64,000 nt of DNA from an uncultured bacterium (GTDB taxonomy: Bacteria; Nitrospirota; Thermodesulfovibrionia; Thermodesulfovibrionales; Thermodesulfovibrionaceae), in the NCBI GenBank assembly GCA_937998865.1, contig CALLBR010000017.1:1-64000 (forward strand), given 5' to 3'. Under the pieces are notes generated by a model. That model was not told where the DNA came from. It saw only the letters and a list, made by a program, of their open reading frames with translations, and searched no databases. Each line of letters starts with the position of its first letter. The first letter of the stretch is position 1. A program made the position numbers and the translations under genes. Positions 4,594 to 50,986 of the stretch are shown one piece after another.

Positions 4594-6195
4594 TTATCTC
4601 AAAAGCTGTAGCACAAGCTGAGGTAAGGCATTTGCTTGAGCAAGCATTGCCACACCAGCCTGCATTCTAATTTGTAAGGTTGTAAAATTGCTCATCTCTT
4701 CAGCAAAGTCAGTGTTTCGTATAACATTTTCTGCCTCTTTTGTGTTGTCAAAGGAGGCTTTCTGTCCATCCCATATTGCCTGAAGGTTATTAATTACAGA
4801 ACCAATCTGAGTACGGATTTTGTCAACCCTCTGAAGAGCAGTTTTAACAATATCTAAAGCAAGCTCTGCATTCTCATTTGATCTTACATCGAGAGAATAG
4901 AGATTTTTAAATTCTGCATTACCAGAAGGATTACCAGAAGTATCGGATATACCAAGTCCTTGATTAGAACCAGTAATTCCAGTGAAGTCATAGTTATATT
5001 TATCAGTTCCCATTATAACAAGTTTGCCTACCTGAATTGCTGAACCTGTTGCTAAGGCAGCGGCTGCAGATGCTGTTGCTGAGACATTCACAGTTGTTGA
5101 AGATAACCCTAAGAATTGAGCCATATTAACTGAAATTGTTCCACCATTAGCTGCAGCAGAAGCAGAAACCTCTAATCCAATGGTTTGACCTTCTGTTGTT
5201 AAAACTAACTTGTTGTTTTCTGCTTTTGCTGTAATAGCTATTTTGTTTGCTGAAGCTTTACTGTTTATCTCAGCTACAAGTCCTGAAAGTGTAAGAACCT
5301 GTCCTGCCCCAACAGTAATTGTAATATCTGCCGTATTATCACTACCTACATAAAACCTAATGGAAACACTTTGGTCTGTTCTAACCTGTATATCTGTCCA
5401 GTCTGCTGCTGCTACACTTTCATTTTTTGCTCTTGCTGATATTCCAGCGTTCTGTAACTCTTTAGATTCGTTTATTTTTTTTGCTATTTCATAAGCATCT
5501 ACTGCAAAACTTAACCCTGATGAGACATCAATTCCATAAACCCTTGCAATATCCCCAGTATCCCACCTAAAATTCGAATTAGGTTGGACCGCTCCTGTTG
5601 ATGTAGTATAGCCATTATTAACTGTTGCTGCAGATGCTGATGCTGCTTCAAAGTTTGTGGAATACTTTCCTGTAACCATATAGGAACCTAAGTCATTGGC
5701 TTTAACAGAACTTATGCCAACTGTAATTGTCTGGTCTGCCCTTGCTCCGTAATGGATTACTTTGTCAGAAAATGTTCCATCTAAAAGTTTAATTCCATTA
5801 TACTCTGTGTCTGTTCCAATCTTTTGAATAGCATCAGTAAGATTGGAGATATCTCTCTGAAGGGCTAAACGGGCATTTGGATCATTAATGTCATTGGCTG
5901 CAGACTGGGCTTTTGTATAGATTGTCTGTAACTTTTCAAAAATCTGACCCACATTTGTTTCAGCAATTTGCAGAGCACTTATTCCTGTTTGGATGTTTCT
6001 GTTTCCTTGCTGAAGGGCTGCAGCAACTACTGAAAGCTGGTCTGCGATAAAAAGCCCTGCTGCATCATCAGCTGCAGAGAGAATTCTGTTACCTGTTGAA
6101 ATCCTTAAAAGGGATTTGTTCATTGCCCTTTCGTTTCTTAAAAGGGCTGTGTGAGTTACTGCTGCTTCGGCGTTAAAATTAATTTTTAGTGCCAT
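4594..6195 (-). CDS. fliC: Flagellin
   Basis: 533 residues with both conserved flagellin ends. The N-terminal D0/D1 has LLRNERAMNKSLLRISTG and ILSAADDAAGLFIADQL; the C-terminal D1/D0 has RTQIGSVINNLQ and ends MLAQANALPQLVLQLLR. The central region (about 170-440) is a long Ala/Thr/Ser-rich variable part, likely two extra outer domains and likely sites for O-linked sugar. It is exported through the flagellar type III system and forms the filament. A Shine-Dalgarno (GGAGG) lies just upstream of the ATG. Regulation is visible: a sigma-28-type promoter and a structured leader (see 6225-6330). The neighbouring Maf and pseudaminate synthase genes suggest the protein is glycosylated. Confidence 0.95.
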   Translation of the reverse strand: MALKINFNAEAAVTHTALLRNERAMNKSLLRISTGNRILSAADDAAGLFIADQLSVVAAALQQGNRNIQTGISALQIAETNVGQIFEKLQTIYTKAQSAANDINDPNARLALQRDISNLTDAIQKIGTDTEYNGIKLLDGTFSDKVIHYGARADQTITVGISSVKANDLGSYMVTGKYSTNFEAASASAATVNNGYTTSTGAVQPNSNFRWDTGDIARVYGIDVSSGLSFAVDAYEIAKKINESKELQNAGISARAKNESVAAADWTDIQVRTDQSVSIRFYVGSDNTADITITVGAGQVLTLSGLVAEINSKASANKIAITAKAENNKLVLTTEGQTIGLEVSASAAANGGTISVNMAQFLGLSSTTVNVSATASAAAALATGSAIQVGKLVIMGTDKYNYDFTGITGSNQGLGISDTSGNPSGNAEFKNLYSLDVRSNENAELALDIVKTALQRVDKIRTQIGSVINNLQAIWDGQKASFDNTKEAENVIRNTDFAEEMSNFTTLQIRMQAGVAMLAQANALPQLVLQLLR

Positions 6196-6224
6196 GCTTT
6201 AAACCTCCATGTTTTTTTATCTTC

Positions 6225-6293
6225 GGATGCCTCCTGCATCCAGACAGCTTTAGGTGAGTATTTGCAGCTTCACCTCCTTTCCACCCTGCTGTC
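6225..6293 (-). promoter_or_regulatory. Folded flagellin leader with two nested stem-loops, possible CsrA sites
   Basis: In the 5' leader on the minus strand there is a perfect 6-bp stem GGATGC/GCATCC (6225-6230 with 6236-6241) whose 5-base loop reads AGGAG. Upstream, GACAGC/GCTGTC (6243-6248 with 6288-6293) encloses AGGTGA/TCACCT (6252-6257 with 6270-6275), hiding a decoy AAGGAGGTGA. A GGA-bearing loop plus a GGA within the true Shine-Dalgarno (TGGAGG) is the arrangement CsrA uses on flagellin mRNA in Bacillus. CsrA and FliW are not in the window, so the regulator is inferred. Confidence 0.5.
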
Positions 6294-6303
6294 TTAATTT
6301 TTT

Positions 6304-6330
6304 ATATCGGAGAATTTAAATAAAAGTTTA
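6304..6330 (-). promoter_or_regulatory. Sigma-28 (FliA) promoter of flagellin
   Basis: Read on the minus strand: TAAA (6330-6327), exactly 15 bases, then TCCGATAT (6311-6304). The FliA consensus is TAAA-N15-GCCGATAA, so the -35 matches fully and the -10 matches at 6 of 8 positions with correct spacing. It lies about 110 bases before the flagellin start codon, leaving room for the folded leader. Confidence 0.8.
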
Positions 6331-6377
6331 GTGAAATTTTCAAAATAAATTTAATAATAAATTTAATAATTACTGAC

Positions 6378-8516
6378 CTATGAATCTTGAAATTTTCCTA
6401 AAAATTTCCTTGGCTTTCCAGCACTTTGAGGGGGTCCCACAAGACCGTCTTCCTCAAGCATATCCATTATTCTTGCAGCTCTGTTGTATCCTATTTTAAA
6501 TTTTCTCTGAATAAGAGATATTGAAATCTCTCCCACCTGTGAGGCATATTCTATTACCCTCTCATAAAGCTCATCTCTTTCAAAGACTTTTTCATTTTCA
6601 TTCTCCTTTTTCTCAGAGGGTATCTGAATTGATTGAAAGAGGGAATAATCAGGTGAAGCCTGATTCCTTAGGTATTCTACTACTTTCTTAACCTCATCTT
6701 CGCTTACATAGGCTCCGTGAACTCTTATTATTTTAACTCCTGATAGCATAAAGAGCATATCTCCCATGCCAAGCAATTTTTCTGCTCCTTGAGAATCAAG
6801 AATAGTTCGGGAGTCAACCCTAGAGGAGACCTGAAAAGCAATTCTTGCTGGGAAATTAGCTTTAATTATCCCTGTTATTACATCTACACTTGGTCGCTGG
6901 GTGGCAACAACAAGATGAATACCAGCAGCCCTTGCCATTTGAGCAATTCTGGTAACAGCATGCTCTACTTCAGAAGGCGCTGTAAACATTAAATCTGCAA
7001 ATTCATCAATAAAAACCACTACATAGGGAATTCTCTCATGAGGAGAAACTGCTTTATTAAAGCTTTCAATATTTCTGAATCCCTTTGCTGCAAAAAGCTT
7101 GTATCTTCGTTCCATCTCTACAATTATCTTTTTTAATGCTTCTGAAGCCTCCCTCGGATCTGTTACTACCGGTGCAATAAGATGTGGAATATTTTCATAA
7201 ATGGAAAGCTCAAGGAGTTTAGGATCAATAAGGAGGAGTTTCACATCCTGCGGTGTTGCCTTAAAGAGAATACTTAGTATCATCGTATTTAAACATACAC
7301 TTTTCCCTGAACCTGTTGCTCCAGCTACCAGAAGGTGGGGCATTTTTGCCAAATCAGCCACAAAAGGATTTCCGTATATATCTTTTCCTAAACATAAAGT
7401 AAGATAGGAGGAACTCTTATTAAATTTTTCTGATGCAATTATTTCACCAAGCCATACTATTTGGCGTTTTTTATTTGGAACTTCAATTCCAATTGTAGAC
7501 TTGCCAGCTATGGGATAAACCCTTATACTTTGAGCTTTTAGGGCTAATGCTAAATCATCACTTAAGGTAAGTATTTTGCTCAGTTTTATTCCGCTGGCAG
7601 GTTCAAATTCATACATGGTTACTACAGGTCCAGGATGTACTTCCTTAATGGTGCCTTGAATTCCAAATTCTGAAAATCTCATCTCTATGCTGTGGGCAGA
7701 CTCTATTATTTCATCTTTTGAGAGAGTGCTCTCACTTCTCTCCATCTTAAGAAGACTCAAAGGCGGAAGTCTAAAAACATCCTTTCCTGAATCTGAAGCC
7801 TTTGGTTTAGAAATTTCTCCCTGGATAATATCTAAAGTTTCCTCTTTTTGAGATTCTCCCTCAACCTTTCTTATTTGAGACTCTCCTTTTGAAACCTTTA
7901 AAATTTTTATTTCTTCTTGAGAAGGAGATTCCTTATAGATTAACTCTTTTTTCCTCATGATTATCTTTGGTTTTATAAGGATAACTGAAGCTAAAGCGAT
8001 TGAAATCAAAAATATGTAAGTTCCTGCCAAAGAAATATAATTTTTAAAAAAATGAAAGGCAACCCATGATAAACCCTCAGGAAGTCTTTTATAGCTTTTT
8101 ATGACATCTCTTAAAGGCTCCATCATTACAGCTAAGGAGAAAAGAAAAATCAATAGAAAGGGTATTTGAGAAAGGGAAATGGAGCTTCCGCGAAATACTC
8201 TGATAGCAAGCCATAGAAATCCCAGAGGGATCAAAAAGGTAGCTAATCCAAAGAGGCTTAGTAGTAAATCTGATAAATAAGAACCCACAATACCACCGTA
8301 ATTATTAGGTTTCAATTTTGTATAGGTAAAAAAAGAAGGGTCTAATAGGTTATAGGAAAAAAGGGTTATGGAAAGATACACAGCAAGAGCTACTAAAAAA
8401 ATTGATTTAAAAATATGAGTTGCCTTGAATTTATCTTTTTGATAGTTCTTTGAAGCATCAATAGAAAAATTTGTTCTCCTTTTAGGAGGTTTTCTATAGA
8501 ATACTTTTGTTGCCAT
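6378..8516 (-). CDS. ftsK: DNA translocase FtsK
   Basis: 712 residues in the FtsK/SpoIIIE order: four membrane helices in the first 175 residues, a short charged linker (about 180-240), the beta and alpha motor domain with Walker A GATGSGKS and Walker B YVVVFIDEFADLM, RQ-type motif VVATQRPSVDVITG, and the C-terminal gamma winged helix (LIQRKFKIGYNRAARIMDML) that reads KOPS-type sequences. It pumps chromosome DNA through the closing septum and activates XerCD at dif. The linker is far shorter than in E. coli, as in many non-enteric bacteria. Its start codon overlaps the uppP stop (TAATG), so the two are translationally coupled. Confidence 0.96.
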   Translation of the reverse strand: MATKVFYRKPPKRRTNFSIDASKNYQKDKFKATHIFKSIFLVALAVYLSITLFSYNLLDPSFFTYTKLKPNNYGGIVGSYLSDLLLSLFGLATFLIPLGFLWLAIRVFRGSSISLSQIPFLLIFLFSLAVMMEPLRDVIKSYKRLPEGLSWVAFHFFKNYISLAGTYIFLISIALASVILIKPKIIMRKKELIYKESPSQEEIKILKVSKGESQIRKVEGESQKEETLDIIQGEISKPKASDSGKDVFRLPPLSLLKMERSESTLSKDEIIESAHSIEMRFSEFGIQGTIKEVHPGPVVTMYEFEPASGIKLSKILTLSDDLALALKAQSIRVYPIAGKSTIGIEVPNKKRQIVWLGEIIASEKFNKSSSYLTLCLGKDIYGNPFVADLAKMPHLLVAGATGSGKSVCLNTMILSILFKATPQDVKLLLIDPKLLELSIYENIPHLIAPVVTDPREASEALKKIIVEMERRYKLFAAKGFRNIESFNKAVSPHERIPYVVVFIDEFADLMFTAPSEVEHAVTRIAQMARAAGIHLVVATQRPSVDVITGIIKANFPARIAFQVSSRVDSRTILDSQGAEKLLGMGDMLFMLSGVKIIRVHGAYVSEDEVKKVVEYLRNQASPDYSLFQSIQIPSEKKENENEKVFERDELYERVIEYASQVGEISISLIQRKFKIGYNRAARIMDMLEEDGLVGPPQSAGKPRKFLGKFQDS

Positions 8517-42688: not shown

Positions 42689-44431
42689 ATGGTAGAACAA
42701 AAGAAAGGGGTAAGTGAAGATTGGTTAGCCTTCTGGTTAGCTGTTATTATCTTTATTATCTCTCTATTCTCTTATGCAGGCATCGATCCCCTGGGTTGGG
42801 TAGTGAGCACAAAAGAGTGGACAGATTCAAGTAAAGCTATAGCTCCAACTGGGAAAATTTATCAATCTGTGAAAGGTGAGATTACAAAAATTGATGGAAA
42901 CAAAATCACAATTAAAAAAGCTGATGGAAAAGAAGAGGCAATAACAGTTAAAGACGCTTCAATTTACAAGGTTGGCGATATCTATGAAAAGAAAGGACTC
43001 TCAGGCTTTGCCTCTCTAGTTCTAACCTATCTTTTTATGGCTGTTGTATTCTCTATAGGTGCCGCTTTAATGCGAGCAAATATAGTTAAATTTAACATAG
43101 GTTTCTTCTTTGTATTCTGGCTCAGTTATCTCTGTTGGTTTATTGGCCATTATGCCTATTTTGCAGCTACAGACCCAAAGAAAGCCGGAGTTCCTTGGTC
43201 ACTAAAACTTACTGGTGAGGGTGGGTTTATATTTGCACTTTTGCTTGGCTTAATAATTGGTAATTTCTTCAGAGGCTTTGCAAAATTCATTAGTGAAGCA
43301 TTAAAACCAGAGTTCTACATAAAAACAGCCATAGGTTTAATGGGTGCCTTGATTGGTTTGAAATCAGCAGAAGCCTTTGGACTTGCCTCTGCAGTTCTTT
43401 TCAGAGGTCTTTGCGCCATTATCGAAGCCTATCTAATTTATTGGGCAGTTGTCTATTTCATTGCAAGAAAATGGTTTAAATTCAGCAGAGAATGGGCAGC
43501 TCCACTTGCCTCTGGTATATCCATTTGTGGTGTATCTGCAGCCATTGCAACAGGTGGAGCCATTAAAGCAAGGCCTGTTGTCCCCATCATGGTTAGTTCT
43601 CTGGTAGTTATCTTTGCTGTTATAGAGCTTATTATTCTTCCTTTCTTTGCTCAGGCTTTTCTTTGGAAAGAACCTATGGTAGCTGGTGCTTGGATGGGAC
43701 TTGCTGTTAAAACAGATGGTGCTGCCTTTGCATCCGGCGCAGTAGTTGATGCCCTTATTAGGGCAAAAGCAGAGACTGCTGCTGGAATAAAGTATGAACC
43801 TGGTTGGATGCTAATGGCAGCTTCTACAACAAAATTGTTCATTGATATATTTATCAGTATATGGGCTTTTATACTTGCTTATATATGGTGTGCTAAGATT
43901 GAATGCAGCCCAGGTGAGAGAGTTTCAGGAAAGGAAATTTGGAGAAGATTTCCAAAGTTTGTCATGGCTTATGCCATAACCTTTATAGTCATCCTTCTTA
44001 TCTCAGCACCTCATGCTCCGAAGATTACGCCAGTTGATGCTCAAATTAAAAACATAAACAAAGAAATTGCAGCCTTAGAAAAACAGCTTGTTGTAGCCAC
44101 TGATGAAGCTCAAAAAGCCCAGATTACAGCAAATATTGACTCAAAGAAAGCACAAATTAAAGAGCTTGAGACAAGCATCAAAGACTCAAAGAAGATAATA
44201 TCTCAAACAAAAACTGCCACAGCTGGAACCAATTCCTTGAGAGTGCTCTTCTTTTTAATCACCTTCTTTACTATAGGAGTTATGTCTGACTTTAGAAAAC
44301 TATGGGAAGAGGGAATTGGTAGATTAGCGTTAGTATATCTTATTTGTCTGTTCGGCTTCATTCTGTGGATCGGACTGTTAATATCTTATATTTTCTTCCA
44401 CGGAGTAAAACCTCCGATAATAACTGGTTAA
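42689..44431 (+). CDS. YeiH-family (putative sulfate exporter type) membrane protein with two inserted domains
   Basis: 580 residues; about twelve helices. The family signature is GISICGVSAAIATGGAIKA (about 272-290), with GAWMGLAVKTDGAAFASGA following, as in YeiH/UPF0324 proteins, whose substrate is unproved. Two parts are unusual. After the first helix, residues about 58-102 form a periplasmic beta domain (VKGEITKIDGNKITIKKADG) closely like one in the secreted protein at 59838. Before the last two helices, residues about 448-510 form a charged coiled coil (INKEIAALEKQLVVATDEAQ). The protein is thus much longer than the usual 330-350. AAAGGAGG precedes the start. It is followed by a 56-residue membrane protein and a terminator, making a two-gene unit. 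Confidence 0.78.
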   Translation: MVEQKKGVSEDWLAFWLAVIIFIISLFSYAGIDPLGWVVSTKEWTDSSKAIAPTGKIYQSVKGEITKIDGNKITIKKADGKEEAITVKDASIYKVGDIYEKKGLSGFASLVLTYLFMAVVFSIGAALMRANIVKFNIGFFFVFWLSYLCWFIGHYAYFAATDPKKAGVPWSLKLTGEGGFIFALLLGLIIGNFFRGFAKFISEALKPEFYIKTAIGLMGALIGLKSAEAFGLASAVLFRGLCAIIEAYLIYWAVVYFIARKWFKFSREWAAPLASGISICGVSAAIATGGAIKARPVVPIMVSSLVVIFAVIELIILPFFAQAFLWKEPMVAGAWMGLAVKTDGAAFASGAVVDALIRAKAETAAGIKYEPGWMLMAASTTKLFIDIFISIWAFILAYIWCAKIECSPGERVSGKEIWRRFPKFVMAYAITFIVILLISAPHAPKITPVDAQIKNINKEIAALEKQLVVATDEAQKAQITANIDSKKAQIKELETSIKDSKKIISQTKTATAGTNSLRVLFFLITFFTIGVMSDFRKLWEEGIGRLALVYLICLFGFILWIGLLISYIFFHGVKPPIITG

Positions 44432-44706: not shown

Positions 44707-45750
44707 ATGGAATTACCAAACCTAATACCTTATCCAGAGCCAATACCTGCACCACCAGAAATATTCATCATTCTTGAGCAAACATTCTTTCTTATCCATA
44801 TTCTGCTTATAAACTCAATTTTAGGTTTAAGTATAATATTGAGTTATAAATGGGCTAAAGAAAAAGAGTTTTTTGAAAATAATAGACCTCTAGCTAAAAA
44901 GATTCCTTTGTTTTTTGCCTTAGGAATAAATATGGCTATTCCTGCCTTACTTTTTATTCAGGTTGTATACGGTAATCTCTTCTATACAAGCTCCATACTT
45001 ATCGGTACTTTTTGGATTTTAATTATCCCTCTTCTCATATTAGCCTACTATAGCTCTTATTTTCACTATAGAAAATTTGGATTATCTTCCTATGCTAAGC
45101 ATGCCTTACTTTTCATGATGTTAATTGTTTTATATATTGCATTTATTCTTGTAAATAATCTCTCAATTATGGAGATGCCCCAAACATGGAATGCCTATTT
45201 TTCAAATAGAGAAGGTACTATTATTCTATGGAATCTGAATAGTATTTATCCTCGATATCTCCATTTCATTATAGCATCCATTGCAATAGGTGGACTTGTA
45301 TATAGTTTTTATTTCCGAAATAAAGTTGACAGAGACAATAAAGTTAGAGAAGGGCTAAAAATTTTCGCTTATGCCACAATGATTCAAATTGCAGTGGGTA
45401 TTTGGTTTCTTCTTAGTCTTCCTAAAGGAGTGATGATTAAATTCATGGGAGAAAACACTATTGCAACTATAATTTTATTATCAGGAATAGCAACAGCCTT
45501 TATTTCTATTGTGGTATCTTTAAAAGGTAAATTAAAGGAATCTCTTATTTTTCTATCACTAACTTTAATTTCAATGATTATCAACAGATATCATTTAAGA
45601 GTATTTAATTTAGGAGAAAACTTTAGCCTTTCTCATCTTAAGGTATCGCCCCAATGGGATGTCTTTGCGCTGTTTTTATTTGTTTTGCTTACGGGAATAG
45701 TCATTATAATATATATGCTTAAAATTGCCTTTCAAAGCAAAATGAGGTAA
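44707..45750 (+). CDS. Membrane partner subunit of a bd-oxidase-like complex
   Basis: 347 residues, about nine helices, no haem-c motif. FFLIHILLINSILGLSIIL (H31) and YPRYLHFIIASIAIGGLVY (H186) resemble the haem-ligand helices of CydA-type subunits (the second is like CydA's b558 His segment). It is therefore a divergent relative of the cytochrome bd superfamily, probably carrying b-type haem and forming a complex with the next gene, 5 nt downstream. A promoter TTGCTT (44666), 17 bases, TATAAT (44689-44694) puts transcription start about 6 bases before the ATG, without a Shine-Dalgarno. No oxidase activity can be claimed. Confidence 0.6.
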   Translation: MELPNLIPYPEPIPAPPEIFIILEQTFFLIHILLINSILGLSIILSYKWAKEKEFFENNRPLAKKIPLFFALGINMAIPALLFIQVVYGNLFYTSSILIGTFWILIIPLLILAYYSSYFHYRKFGLSSYAKHALLFMMLIVLYIAFILVNNLSIMEMPQTWNAYFSNREGTIILWNLNSIYPRYLHFIIASIAIGGLVYSFYFRNKVDRDNKVREGLKIFAYATMIQIAVGIWFLLSLPKGVMIKFMGENTIATIILLSGIATAFISIVVSLKGKLKESLIFLSLTLISMIINRYHLRVFNLGENFSLSHLKVSPQWDVFALFLFVLLTGIVIIIYMLKIAFQSKMR

Positions 45751-45755
45751 AAAAG

Positions 45756-48407
45756 ATGAATTACCCTATCTGGGAGCTTTACTATCTTAATTCAGGTACT
45801 CTTGTAGCAATGATATCAATTTTACATGTTTTTATTTCTCATTTTGCTGTAGGTGGAGGTATCTATCTATGGTTAACTGATTTAAAAAGTGTAAGACAAA
45901 ACGATTTAGCTCTTAGACAATATGTACGTAGGCACCTATGGTTTTTCCTATTGCTTACTATGGTCTTAGGTGGAGTTTCCGGTGTAGGAATCTGGTTTAT
46001 CATAGGTCTTTCAAATCCATGGGCGACTTCCATTTTGATTCACACTTTTGTTTTTGCTTGGGCAATAGAATGGGTATTTTTCCTTGTGGAGATCGTCTCT
46101 CTGTTGATTTATCATTATAAATTTGAGACTTTAACAGACAAAAATCGGCTAATAATTGCTTTTATATATGCTGCCTCTGCTTGGTTAAGTCTTTTTATTA
46201 TAAATGGCATTATTACCTTTATGCTCACGCCAGGAGATTGGCTTAGTACTGGTAAATTTTGGGATGGATTTTTTAATCCTTCTCATCTGCCAAGTCTTTT
46301 ATTTAGAACTGCTGTATGCATAATGTTTGCTGGTTTGTTTGGTTTTGTAACAGCAGTATATGAAAAAGATGAAAAATTAAAAAACACTCTTCTTAAATAC
46401 TGCAATAAATGGCTTTACTCTGCTTTACCTTTTCTTTTATTCTCAGGAATTTGGTATTTCTTCTCTATTCCTGAAAATACAAGGTTTACAAATTTTATTC
46501 TCAATAAACAAACTTCTCAACCTTTAAGCATTTTTATAATAACCTCAATACTTATCTATCTCTTTGGATTAATTTTCATTCTGAGAACCAAAAAAATTTT
46601 TCAAAGATTTATAGTTTTCCTTTTCCTCCTATTAGGACTTTTTTGGATAGGTGGATTTGAGTATATGAGAGAATATGCAAGAAAACCATATATAATCCAT
46701 GGTTATATGTATTCTACTTCCATATTAGTAGCCCATGAAGAAAGCCTTAACAGAGAGGGAATCCTAAAAAAGGCAAGATGGACTGAAGTAAGAGAAATCA
46801 CTGAAGAGAATAAAATTGAAGCAGGCAAAGAACTTTTTAACCTTCAGTGCCTGAGCTGCCATACAATCAAAGGTATTAAAAACGATATAGTTGAGAAAAC
46901 AAAAGGTCTAACCTATCTTGGTATATACTCACAAATTTATGGACAGGGTAAAATTCTTGATTACATGCCAAAATTTGTAGGAAATGAAAAGGAAATGGAT
47001 GCCTTAGCAGCTTTTATTGCAAGCCTACATGATAAAAGGGAAGAAATTCTGGCTGAATTTAAACCTAAGGAAGAAGAGATTAAAATTCCTAATTTTAATC
47101 CTAAGGAAGATGAATATATCCTTCTTGCTTGGAGTATTCTTGGAGAAAAATGTATAACTGATGCAGACAGATGGTTTTCCTTTCTATATCCAGGTAGCAC
47201 TTTCCAAGCTATTCTTATAAAAAGAGGAAAAAAGCCAGAGATTATGTCAGAAGGAATAGAGATTCACTATGAAGTTCAAAAAGGTTATGAAAATCCTTCA
47301 AAGCATGTTGATTTCTGGAAATTTGTTGAATCATTAAAGGGTAAAACATTACCTAAGGATATTGGCATTAGTGGAAAAGGATTAAAAGGAATCTTTGACT
47401 ATGATAGTAATAAAAAAATATTTACTGCTGAAGGAATTCCCGTGTTGCCTTACAGAGACGATGGAGTCTTTAATCCCTATCCTCTCTTTGAAGTTAAGGC
47501 AATAGAGAAAAATACAGGAAAAGTATTGCAAAGTACAAAATTTGTAGCAGCTGTATCCACAGAGCTAAGATGCTTCCTTTGTCATGGTGGGAAACCAAGA
47601 TGGAATGGTATTTCAGGCATATCAGATGAGACAGCTATCAATATTTTAAAAATTCATGATAGAAATCATGGCACAAAACTTCTTGAAAGCGCCTTAAAGG
47701 GAAAACCCATGATGTGTCAAAAATGTCATGAAGACTTCATTGTAAAATCAGAAGGCATAAAGGGACACAATAGTTTTTCAGCCTCTATGCATGGATGGCA
47801 TGCTAATTATATTCCCTGGAAAGACGAAAAATCTTGCAATCTTTGTCATCCTAATGATAGCATGGGTAACACTCGATGTAATAGAGATATTCATGCAAAG
47901 TTAGGAATCGGCTGTACTCAATGTCATGGTAGGCTTGATGATCATGCTGCAGGAGTGCTTCTATCCCAAAAGGAAACTCGCACTGCTCACTTACTTTTAA
48001 AGAATCTTAAAACTGAACTACCTCTTCATGACATAAACCCCAGAAAACCTTGGATACAACAACCTGACTGTCTTAATTGTCATAGAGGCTTTCAGCAACC
48101 ACAAAAAAATTCAAAAGCTTTTAATAATTGGACAAGGGATTTATCAGGACTTTACAGAGCAAGAAAAGACAATTCAAGTAAAATACCTTGCATAGCTTGT
48201 CATAGTTCGCCTCATGCCATATACCCTGCTTTTAATGATTTTGGTAGTAATAGAGATAACATTCAACCTCTTCAGTATCAAAGAATGCCTCTTGCTCTTT
48301 CCTCAGAAATGAAATGTGAAGTATGTCATAAAATAAAGATGGAAGGTTCTTTCCATCATGCAAATATTTACAGAAAATTCAGGAATATACACTTAATAAG
48401 CAAATGA
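45756..48407 (+). CDS. bd-oxidase-like membrane protein fused to an octahaem cytochrome c
   Basis: 883 residues. The first 330 or so form about eight or nine helices with CydA-like features: H24 and H30 in LHVFISHFAVGGG, and E105/E112 in AIEWVFFLVEIVSLL, near the E99/E107 pair of E. coli CydA. After that, a soluble, presumably periplasmic part carries eight CxxCH haem-c motifs, at C365, C606, C654, C694, C720, C772, C812 and C854. The first lies in a monohaem-c-like domain (GKELFNLQCLSCHTIKG); the last seven crowd into 280 residues like a multihaem cytochrome. No canonical GRQPW oxygen-site motif was found. It likely passes electrons between the menaquinone pool and periplasmic carriers, with its 347-residue partner. 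Which direction is unknown. Confidence 0.72.
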   Translation: MNYPIWELYYLNSGTLVAMISILHVFISHFAVGGGIYLWLTDLKSVRQNDLALRQYVRRHLWFFLLLTMVLGGVSGVGIWFIIGLSNPWATSILIHTFVFAWAIEWVFFLVEIVSLLIYHYKFETLTDKNRLIIAFIYAASAWLSLFIINGIITFMLTPGDWLSTGKFWDGFFNPSHLPSLLFRTAVCIMFAGLFGFVTAVYEKDEKLKNTLLKYCNKWLYSALPFLLFSGIWYFFSIPENTRFTNFILNKQTSQPLSIFIITSILIYLFGLIFILRTKKIFQRFIVFLFLLLGLFWIGGFEYMREYARKPYIIHGYMYSTSILVAHEESLNREGILKKARWTEVREITEENKIEAGKELFNLQCLSCHTIKGIKNDIVEKTKGLTYLGIYSQIYGQGKILDYMPKFVGNEKEMDALAAFIASLHDKREEILAEFKPKEEEIKIPNFNPKEDEYILLAWSILGEKCITDADRWFSFLYPGSTFQAILIKRGKKPEIMSEGIEIHYEVQKGYENPSKHVDFWKFVESLKGKTLPKDIGISGKGLKGIFDYDSNKKIFTAEGIPVLPYRDDGVFNPYPLFEVKAIEKNTGKVLQSTKFVAAVSTELRCFLCHGGKPRWNGISGISDETAINILKIHDRNHGTKLLESALKGKPMMCQKCHEDFIVKSEGIKGHNSFSASMHGWHANYIPWKDEKSCNLCHPNDSMGNTRCNRDIHAKLGIGCTQCHGRLDDHAAGVLLSQKETRTAHLLLKNLKTELPLHDINPRKPWIQQPDCLNCHRGFQQPQKNSKAFNNWTRDLSGLYRARKDNSSKIPCIACHSSPHAIYPAFNDFGSNRDNIQPLQYQRMPLALSSEMKCEVCHKIKMEGSFHHANIYRKFRNIHLISK

Positions 48408-48465: not shown

Positions 48466-49395
48466 ATGCAAAAACAAAGAGGTAAATTCAAAGACTTAAT
48501 TTTCTTATCAATTACTGCTGTATCAGCCTTTGCAGTAATTGCCATTTCCATTGGTATATTCCTTGTTTTATTTAAGGAATCTTTGCCTTCTATGAATAAA
48601 TTTGGTTTTGAAGGATTCATTTTCTCTACAGAATGGGATCCTGTTCAAGAGATATTTGGTGCAGCTCCTGCGCTTATAGGTACTTTAATAACATCTTTTT
48701 TCTCTTTAATTTTAGCAACACCAATTGCCATAGGAATTGCCATTTTCATAACAGAGATTGCGCCAAACTTTCTCAAGGGCATTATTGGTACAGCAATAGA
48801 GTTGCTTGCTGCAATTCCAAGTATAATTTACGGGATGTGGGGGCTTTTTACCTTAGCACCTATAATGTCTAATGATATAGAACCTTTTTTACAGTCAACC
48901 ATAGGAAAGCTCCCCCTTTTAGGAAAACTCTTTGAGGGAACTCCTCTTGGAGTTGACCTTTTCACTGCAAGCATTATTTTAAGCATAATGATAATTCCTT
49001 TTACTGCATCCATTGCAAGGGACTCTTTTAATCTTACTCCTTCTGTTCTTAAGGAATCTGCTTATGCAATAGGTGCTACCAAATGGGAAGTTGTAAAAGA
49101 TATAGTTCTACCTTATTCAAAACTTGGAGTTCTTGGTGGGATTGGACTCTCCTTAGGAAGAGCTTTAGGAGAGACTATGGCGGTTGCCTTTGTCCTCGGC
49201 AATCTCAATCAAATTCCTAAATCTTTATTGGATGCGGCTTCTACAGTAACTGTAAAACTAGCCAACGAGTTTACAGAAGCAGATAAAGATATCTATTTAA
49301 GCTCTCTTTACTATCTTGCCTTGCTCTTATTTCTAATGAGCTTTACTATACTTGCTCTTGCTAAAATATTTCTACTGAAAGCTGAAAGAAAATGA
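48466..49395 (+). CDS. pstC: Phosphate ABC transporter permease PstC (second set)
   Basis: 309 residues, six helices, with the cytoplasmic loop LTPSVLKESAYAIGATKWEVV contacting PstB and ATPIAIGIAIFITEIAPN as the PstC-type second-helix end. It has a larger periplasmic loop than the first PstC (about 120-170). The gene starts without a Shine-Dalgarno just after a TATAAT. It overlaps pstA2 by 4 nt. The E. coli-like PstS at 24600 is the probable binding protein, since none is encoded here. Confidence 0.94.
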   Translation: MQKQRGKFKDLIFLSITAVSAFAVIAISIGIFLVLFKESLPSMNKFGFEGFIFSTEWDPVQEIFGAAPALIGTLITSFFSLILATPIAIGIAIFITEIAPNFLKGIIGTAIELLAAIPSIIYGMWGLFTLAPIMSNDIEPFLQSTIGKLPLLGKLFEGTPLGVDLFTASIILSIMIIPFTASIARDSFNLTPSVLKESAYAIGATKWEVVKDIVLPYSKLGVLGGIGLSLGRALGETMAVAFVLGNLNQIPKSLLDAASTVTVKLANEFTEADKDIYLSSLYYLALLLFLMSFTILALAKIFLLKAERK

Positions 49396-50231
49396 TTCTG
49401 AATAAGAGAAAAATCATAAGTAGTATTGCCCTGTTTATATGTTTTCTCACTGCCTGTTGGGGAATATTTTGGCTTTCTTTTATTTTAGTTGATGTGATAA
49501 GACATGGCATTTCAAGCATAAATCTTAATCTCTTTTTAAAGGACCCGGCACCACCAGGAGAAGAAGGTGGGGGCTTAAGAAATGCCTTTGTTGGTCATCT
49601 TTTAATAACTCTCTTTGCAACACTCATAGGAGTACCAATAGGCGTTTTAGGTGGAACTTTTCTGGCAGAGTATGGTAGAAAATACAATTTTTCAAAAATT
49701 ATTAGTACCCTTGCTGATATTATGGTAAGTGTACCTGCTATTATAATTGGTGCTTTCATATATGCCATAATCGTTAAACCCTTTGGACATTTTAGTGGCT
49801 GGGCAGGAGCTATTGCATTAGGAATAATTATGATACCTACAGTCCTAAGAACAACAGAAAACATGCTGTCTCTTATACCATGGACTTTGAGAGAAGCTGC
49901 TTTTGCTCTTGGAGCTCCTTATTATAAGGTAATTATTCAAGTTGTATACAGAGGTGCTGCCACAGGAATTCTCACTGGAATTATTCTTGCCATAGCCCGA
50001 GTCACGGGAGAAGCAGCTCCGCTTTTATTTACTGCTTTCAATAATAATTACTTTTCACTCAACATGTCTGAACCTATAGCCTCTTTAACTGTAACTATTT
50101 TCCAATATGCTATGGGTCCTTACGAAGAATGGCATGCTCAAGCATGGGGTGCTGCTTTAATAATCACTTTATTCATACTCTTTACCACAATCACCGGAAG
50201 ATTACTCATAAAAAGGAAGTATAAGGAGTGA
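49392..50231 (+). CDS. pstA: Phosphate ABC transporter permease PstA (second set)
   Basis: 279 residues. Permease loop [22 protein letters not shown] and [16 protein letters not shown] are seen; [25 protein letters not shown] is the PstA core helix. It overlaps the upstream pstC by 4 nt and the downstream pstB start (GTGA). The loop reads GAPYYK where most have GATKW, as in E. coli PstA, which fits the E. coli-like PstS. Confidence 0.94.
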
Positions 50232-50986
50232 CACCGGAAATAGAAATAAAAAATCTAAATTTTTACTACGCAGGTGGAATTAAGACACTTAAAGACATAA
50301 ATATGACTATTTATAAAAGTCAGGTTACTGCCTTAATTGGTCCAAGTGGATGTGGAAAAACTACTTTACTTCGATGTTTTAATAGAATGCATGACTTATA
50401 TGCAGGCAATCGATATGAAGGTGAAATAATATTTCAGGGGCGAAATATTTTATCAAAAGATACAGATCTAATTGAATTAAGAAGCAAAATAGGTATGGTA
50501 TTCCAAAAACCAACTCCCTTTCCCATGAGTATTTTTGAAAATATTGCCTATGGATTAAAATTAAGGGGTATAAAAAAAAGAGGGGAATTAAGAGAGAGGG
50601 TTGAAAAAGCTTTAAAAGATGCTGCTCTCTGGGATGAGGTAAAGGATAAACTAAATACAAATGCCTTTGGATTAAGTGGTGGACAACAACAGCGACTATG
50701 TATTGCAAGAGCCTTAGCAGTAGAACCTGAAATAATACTTTTCGATGAACCTACAAGCGCTCTTGATCCCATATCAACTGGGAAAATAGAAGAATTAATA
50801 ATTTCCCTTAAGGGAAGAGTAACTATAATAATTGTTACTCACAACATGCAACAAGCAGCAAGAATCTCTGATTGGACAGGCTTTATGATGTTAGGAGAAT
50901 TAATAGAATATGACAAAACTGATAGAATATTTACAGTACCTTCCAATAAGCTCACAGAAGACTATATAACAGGAAGATTTGGTTAA
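50228..50986 (+). CDS. pstB: Phosphate ABC transporter ATP-binding protein (second set)
   Basis: 252 residues starting at GTG 50228, which overlaps the pstA2 stop. Walker [10 protein letters not shown], signature [16 protein letters not shown], Walker [15 protein letters not shown] and H-loop [10 protein letters not shown] are intact. It is highly similar to the PstB at 20760 across the whole domain, lacking only that protein's N-terminal extension. The stop overlaps that of the convergent lipoprotein gene by 4 nt. Confidence 0.96.

Follow-up and report, generated by a model that had tools for sequence, protein, structure and literature searches.

Gene pair and domain architecture

The window, i.e. 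the whole stretch of 64,000 nucleotides analysed here, stems from an uncultured thermophilic, anaerobic bacterium with a genome of 1.75 Mb in 46 contigs, whose named genus members in our scan are Thermodesulfovibrio. On its forward strand two consecutive genes encode a second subunit of 347 amino acids (44707–45750) and a main subunit of 883 amino acids (45756–48407; window ORF translation). The first-pass annotation had singled out the span 45756–48407, and this observation is real; it missed, however, the second subunit. In named genomes we obtained 295 relatives by scanning and retained the best 79 loci. The resulting alignment holds 77 full-length rows, 76 of them distinct (one row duplicates the window), with identities to the window protein of 40–89%.

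The main subunit combines four parts, which are also apparent as eight membrane helices, a small cytochrome c domain, a beta-rich domain and a haem-rich domain in an AlphaFold model with a mean pLDDT of 90.6. Residues 1–320 (45756–46715, + strand) form the bd-like core, delimited by alignment, model, HH comparison and topology. Residues 345–425 (46788–47030, + strand) correspond to a class I monohaem cytochrome c with a CXXCH motif at position 365. This domain matches the Pfam family Cytochrome_CBB3 with E = 6e-6 at 26.8 bits, slightly below the cut-off of 27, and in a PDB profile search it matched cytochrome c6 chains. M404 within this domain is invariant in the 77-row alignment and is likely the sixth ligand of a His/Met-coordinated haem. 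The beta-rich domain (residues 450–600, 47103–47555, + strand), delimited by the secondary structure of the model, lacks a haem motif, and no named family was found for it. Residues 601–877 (47556–48386, + strand) constitute a seven-haem cytochrome c with CXXCH motifs at 606, 654, 694, 720, 772, 812 and 854. All eight motifs occur exactly where they had been noted at first pass. Since every one of them is kept in all 77 rows despite identities as low as 40%, they are not a product of chance. According to the distribution of positive charges, both termini of the membrane part lie on the periplasmic side, and therefore all c haems of the main subunit would be periplasmic. The initial description of a bd-superfamily membrane module joined to a periplasm-facing octahaem cytochrome c is thus supported.

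The seven-haem part contains eight further conserved histidines (H634, H679, H682, H713, H730, H820, H867 and H868), which could possibly serve as distal ligands and would suffice for bis-His coordination of all seven haems. Here, as throughout the main subunit, ligands were assigned on the basis of residue conservation and by comparison with the E. coli enzyme, whose structure is known. This count bears on the question whether the fused haem module might itself be a reductase, e.g. of sulfur or nitrogen oxyanions, with the bd part only feeding it. Octahaem cytochromes that act as enzymes do exist, among them Otr, Hao and Onr, which speaks for such a role. That all seven haems could be bis-His coordinated argues against it, as does the observation that Otr, Hao and NrfA are not among the PDB relatives in our profile searches, and we consider this explanation very improbable. 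In these searches no chain of Otr (mentioned in PMC5317091), Hao or Onr appeared up to E = 1, and they do not support Otr, Hao, NrfA or MtrC as relatives of the seven-haem module.

The bd-type core and its oxygen site

Pfam does not report PF01654 for the main subunit of the window, and Pfam and NCBIfam alone did not place its N-terminal part, so that its placement relied on orthologues, on HH comparison and on folds. PF01654 exceeds its curated cut-off in an orthologue that is 89% identical to the window protein (L082; 28.4 versus 26.2 bits) and in one-haem relatives, which reach 35.5–36.8 bits (L137, 35.5). HH comparison of the main core with CydA yields E = 8e-9. In a Foldseek search the model matches 5doq_A at 1.5e-6, and the best 20 PDB matches are all bd-oxidase subunits. 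Family profiles, HH comparison and predicted fold thus agree in placing the N-terminal part in the bd superfamily, as had been proposed.

Alignment to E. coli CydA pairs H24 with H19, E105 with E99, E112 with E107, E306 with E445 and R309 with R448. H24 is found in 76 of the 77 rows and the four other residues in all of them. The three CydA-like residues H24, E105 and E112 had already been recognised correctly; the second conserved histidine, in contrast, is H29 and not H30. The suggestion that standard oxygen-site motifs are missing is not supported, as these residues are invariant or nearly so. What is missing instead belongs to the quinol side of the canonical enzyme. The position of the b558 ligand H186 of E. 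coli is occupied by F183 or R184 (two alignments differ here by one residue, the HH alignment being shifted relative to the direct CydA alignment), and both a counterpart of M393 and the Q-loop are absent. Quinol is therefore not expected to enter in the way it does in CydAB.

Beyond the residues common to CydA, the family alignment shows H29, R184, E302 and R305 as invariant or nearly invariant. None of the four is found in CydA, and because of H29, E302 and R305 the active site may contain another type of haem, or another ligand, than the canonical enzyme; a haem d in the main core is suggested by the alignment only.

The second subunit

For the second subunit (44707–45750, + strand), nine membrane helices and a bd fold are predicted. 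Its AlphaFold model has a pLDDT of 93.9, and the best 18 PDB matches in Foldseek are all bd-oxidase subunits. Searches of Pfam and NCBIfam assigned it to no family, and in particular gave no match to CydB (PF02322). HH comparisons with CydA (E = 0.086, low probability) and CydB (E = 0.027, probability 1.8) likewise remain weak, while comparison with the main subunit demonstrates homology (E = 2.7e-9). Judged by this profile match, the second subunit is a distant paralogue of the main subunit, resembling a CydA' protein. Its invariant or nearly invariant residues are H31, N151, H186, M290 and R294, of which H31 and H186 align with H19 and H186 of E. coli CydA. Among these residues no counterpart of the active-site glutamates is found.

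The two genes form an obligate pair. The gene of the second subunit lies directly upstream of the main gene in 71 of the 79 homologous loci, mostly with a 4-base overlap, and all 17 genomes with a strong main-core match among 148 Nitrospirota genomes searched also encode the partner. A partner-like protein without main core is present in three further genomes of this set. In one Nitrospirota genome (G109), a solitary partner-like bd protein is found near a truncated-globin-like ORF (L190:3424–3921 and 5669–6766). Among the genes closest to the pair in 39 non-redundant loci we found no conserved third operon member; the only recurrent ones encode PsiE (5 cases), a histidine kinase (5 cases) or unrelated housekeeping functions. 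As no conserved third member recurs, the two-gene unit seems to be self-sufficient.

Distribution and modular relatives

The 77 full-length homologues span at least nine phyla. Hosts of the best 79 of the 295 relatives belong to Nitrospirota, Thermodesulfobacteriota, Bacteroidota, Ignavibacteriota, Calditrichota, KSB1, Verrucomicrobiota, Gemmatimonadota, Spirochaetota and others. In a tree of the core, the octahaem form is split from one-haem forms with a branch support of 99 (SH-aLRT, quick search), a topology compatible with, though no proof of, a single origin of the octahaem fusion. Different hosts intermingle in this tree, Thermodesulfobacterium and Kapabacteria being placed near the window, a pattern suggestive of transfer across phyla.

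In other Nitrospirota, a core with a single haem c and a length of about 436 residues is accompanied by a partner of about 404 residues. Yet others encode a stand-alone seven-haem module whose N-terminus resembles a lipoprotein signal. Since both parts also exist apart, the window protein resembles a fusion of the two. Two further loci (L139 and L140) show another arrangement, in which a partner of about 540 residues carries two CXXCH motifs and the core one, and a di- or triheme cytochrome c is encoded separately next to them. In Thermodesulfovibrio sp. N1 (L011; G008:C5) the main gene is present in two frames (769 residues and the rest), which reflects either a pseudogene or a sequencing error.

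Gene neighbourhood

The genome of the window carries a canonical cydA-cydB pair on another contig. Among one-haem forms, the order Rrf2-cydA-cydB-core-partner is found in one direction in G037 and the order cydA-cydB-core-partner in G132. In G026 cydA is located about 7 kb away, and in G028 the genes (L137) are flanked by Rrf2 and hemerythrin genes. For the octahaem form, Rrf2-cydA-cydB is divergent from the pair in three loci (L069, L071 and L072). Altogether cydA is nearby in 4 of the 79 octahaem loci, three of which are from related hosts. In about 1.17 Mb inspected around 80 loci, these four occurrences in two lineages compare with well under one expected by chance, a rough estimate that assumes about one cydA in a genome of several Mb. 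Five loci, all of the Thermodesulfovibrio lineage, carry a gene of the ODP family directly downstream of the pair, followed by a chemotaxis-type signalling protein. Going by its Pfam name and by hits in the literature, we take ODP to be an oxygen-binding diiron protein linked to chemotaxis. Oxygen-related neighbours are thus confined to a minority of the octahaem loci (cydA in 4/79, ODP in 5/79).

The window's own neighbours, a PF03601 gene and a pst operon, are uninformative on oxygen. The former (42689–44431) encodes a YeiH-like transporter of 580 residues with a coiled-coil insert, upstream of the pair. It was dropped as a functional clue because it is common only to the window and its nearest relative L027. 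Behind the pair, the window (48466–50986), L027 and L015 each carry a pst-like operon for phosphate transport, possibly by chance, and PHO4 transporters occur near the pair in two other loci. A PsiE-family gene (PF06146) lies directly upstream of the partner in eight loci (L010, L012, L019, L022, L024, L036, L076 and L080) and is the commonest extra neighbour of the octahaem pair in hosts resembling Bacteroidota, Ignavibacteria and Calditrichota. One contig with both a canonical cydA and the octahaem pair carries a second bd-like ORF (L029:17887–18639).

Some of these neighbours would also be compatible with another small ligand. The pair could be a reductase or scavenger of, for example, NO, with the same electron path: bd enzymes bind NO, the Rrf2-family and hemerythrin neighbours fit NO responses as well, and H29 near the haem-d histidine could mark an altered ligand site. 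Linkage to cydAB in two lineages and to ODP in a third favours O2, however, and NO-reductase families are absent among the first 25 neighbouring families listed. We therefore regard an NO-directed function as quite improbable.

Proposed function

Based on the architecture, conservation, gene pairing and gene context observed here and on the predicted fold, we infer cofactors, electron donor, O2 as substrate and physiological role. A conserved oxygen pocket, the loss of the quinol entrance and c haems fused on the periplasmic side are most simply explained by a bd-type O2 reductase fed by cytochrome c. Likewise, the relationship to bd oxidases, the fused eight-haem wire and the bd-like second subunit suggest that O2 is probably reduced with electrons from outside the inner membrane. 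With reasonable though far from full confidence, we thus propose that the two subunits make up a bd-type oxygen reductase whose electrons come from the periplasm and not from quinol.

In such an enzyme, the eight-helix core of the main subunit would hold a two-haem oxygen site (b595/d-type or equivalent). Electrons would enter on the periplasmic side through the seven-haem module and pass via the tethered His/Met monohaem cytochrome c to the active-site haems, so that the fused c haems would replace haem b558 and take over the role of the Q-loop of CydAB. The partner would act as a non-catalytic, CydA'-like bd-fold subunit in place of CydB and may hold a haem b of its own (H31, H186).

The opposite direction of electron flow has to be weighed against this proposal. 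The bd-like pair might oxidise menaquinol and push electrons out through the eight c haems to periplasmic or extracellular acceptors, as would suit a bd fold with a multihaem module that faces the periplasm, the existence of lipoprotein-like stand-alone seven-haem relatives, and a CydA homologue proposed for electron transfer to the periplasm in cable bacteria (PMC12093952). Yet the main subunit has neither quinol loop nor b558 ligands and retains the oxygen-site residues with hardly any exception. Moreover, neither a porin nor an outer-membrane partner is conserved beside the pair in the homologous loci, and the neighbouring genes point to oxygen. An outward-directed quinol dehydrogenase therefore appears unlikely, and less likely than a periplasm-fed O2 reductase. 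The first-pass annotation had viewed the protein as quinol-linked rather than directed at oxygen, which is not supported in view of the conserved oxygen-site residues, the missing b558 ligands and Q-loop and the neighbours cydAB, Rrf2, ODP and hemerythrin. It had also left open whether the module feeds or draws from periplasmic or extracellular partners; here, drawing from periplasmic donors fits our proposal, whereas feeding extracellular acceptors is a minority possibility.

For Thermodesulfovibrio sp. N1, a hydrogenase and a formate dehydrogenase have been described, both periplasmic and lacking membrane subunits, whose electrons are thought to pass to c-type cytochromes (PMC5165239). These cytochromes would be fitting donors, so that in Thermodesulfovibrio periplasmic c-type cytochromes reduced by both enzymes likely supply the periplasm-fed O2 reductase. 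The likely role would be the removal of O2 by an anaerobe, beside canonical CydAB, and the pair thus probably serves in oxygen defence.

More tentatively, the family could represent a widespread class of bd-type cytochrome c:O2 oxidoreductases with an octahaem conductor and a CydA-like subunit replacing CydB, by which anaerobes and microaerobes drain periplasmic, perhaps extracellular, electrons to O2 and bypass quinone. If this holds true, at least nine phyla, with sulfate reducers, Bacteroidota and Calditrichota among them, would possess an unannotated route of oxygen defence or respiration. To our knowledge, all characterised bd oxidases oxidise quinol; a bd enzyme with fused c haems in place of the quinol site would be a concrete protein that can be expressed to test those branches of the superfamily for which cytochrome c is the predicted donor. 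The octahaem bd family may also be relevant to the single CydA homologue of cable bacteria.

Comparison with known systems

Full-text searches of open-licence papers revealed neither a bd core with a fused multihaem cytochrome nor a characterised enzyme with this exact architecture. Canonical CydAB, a qOR enzyme, shares with the window pair the bd fold, the oxygen-site residues and the outside N-terminus. In contrast to CydAB, the window pair lacks the b558 His/Met ligands and the Q-loop, carries fused c haems and has a CydA-like paralogue instead of CydB. Archaeal CydAA' consists of two superfamily paralogues as well and is reported to oxidise quinol; it is not known to contain c haems. The likeness lies in two paralogues that are encoded together, as reflected here by the HH match between the subunits and their adjacency in most loci.

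A precedent for two donors is found in Desulfovibrio vulgaris, which has a cc(o/b)o3 cytochrome c oxidase beside a bd-quinol oxidase (PMC4383621), i.e. a second, cytochrome c-fed O2 reductase in a sulfate-reducing anaerobe. This is an analogy only, as cc(o/b)o3 is a haem-copper enzyme and not a bd enzyme.

According to papers citing Murali et al. 2021, the bd superfamily is divided into qOR, OR-C and OR-N, with the quinol site defining qOR and OR-N thought to use cytochrome c (PMC13189123, PMC10839748, PMC12342949). None of the qOR features, namely Q-loop, H186/M393 ligands and CydB partner (PF02322), was found in the window pair. Like OR-C and OR-N, the window family stands outside the quinol-site group and has paralogous subunits; unlike them, as far as these papers describe the two groups, it possesses a fused seven- or eight-haem module. 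Nitrospirota bd-like proteins of 580–590 residues match the N-terminal part of the window protein at about 1e-16, and the octahaem family may belong to the published OR-C group.
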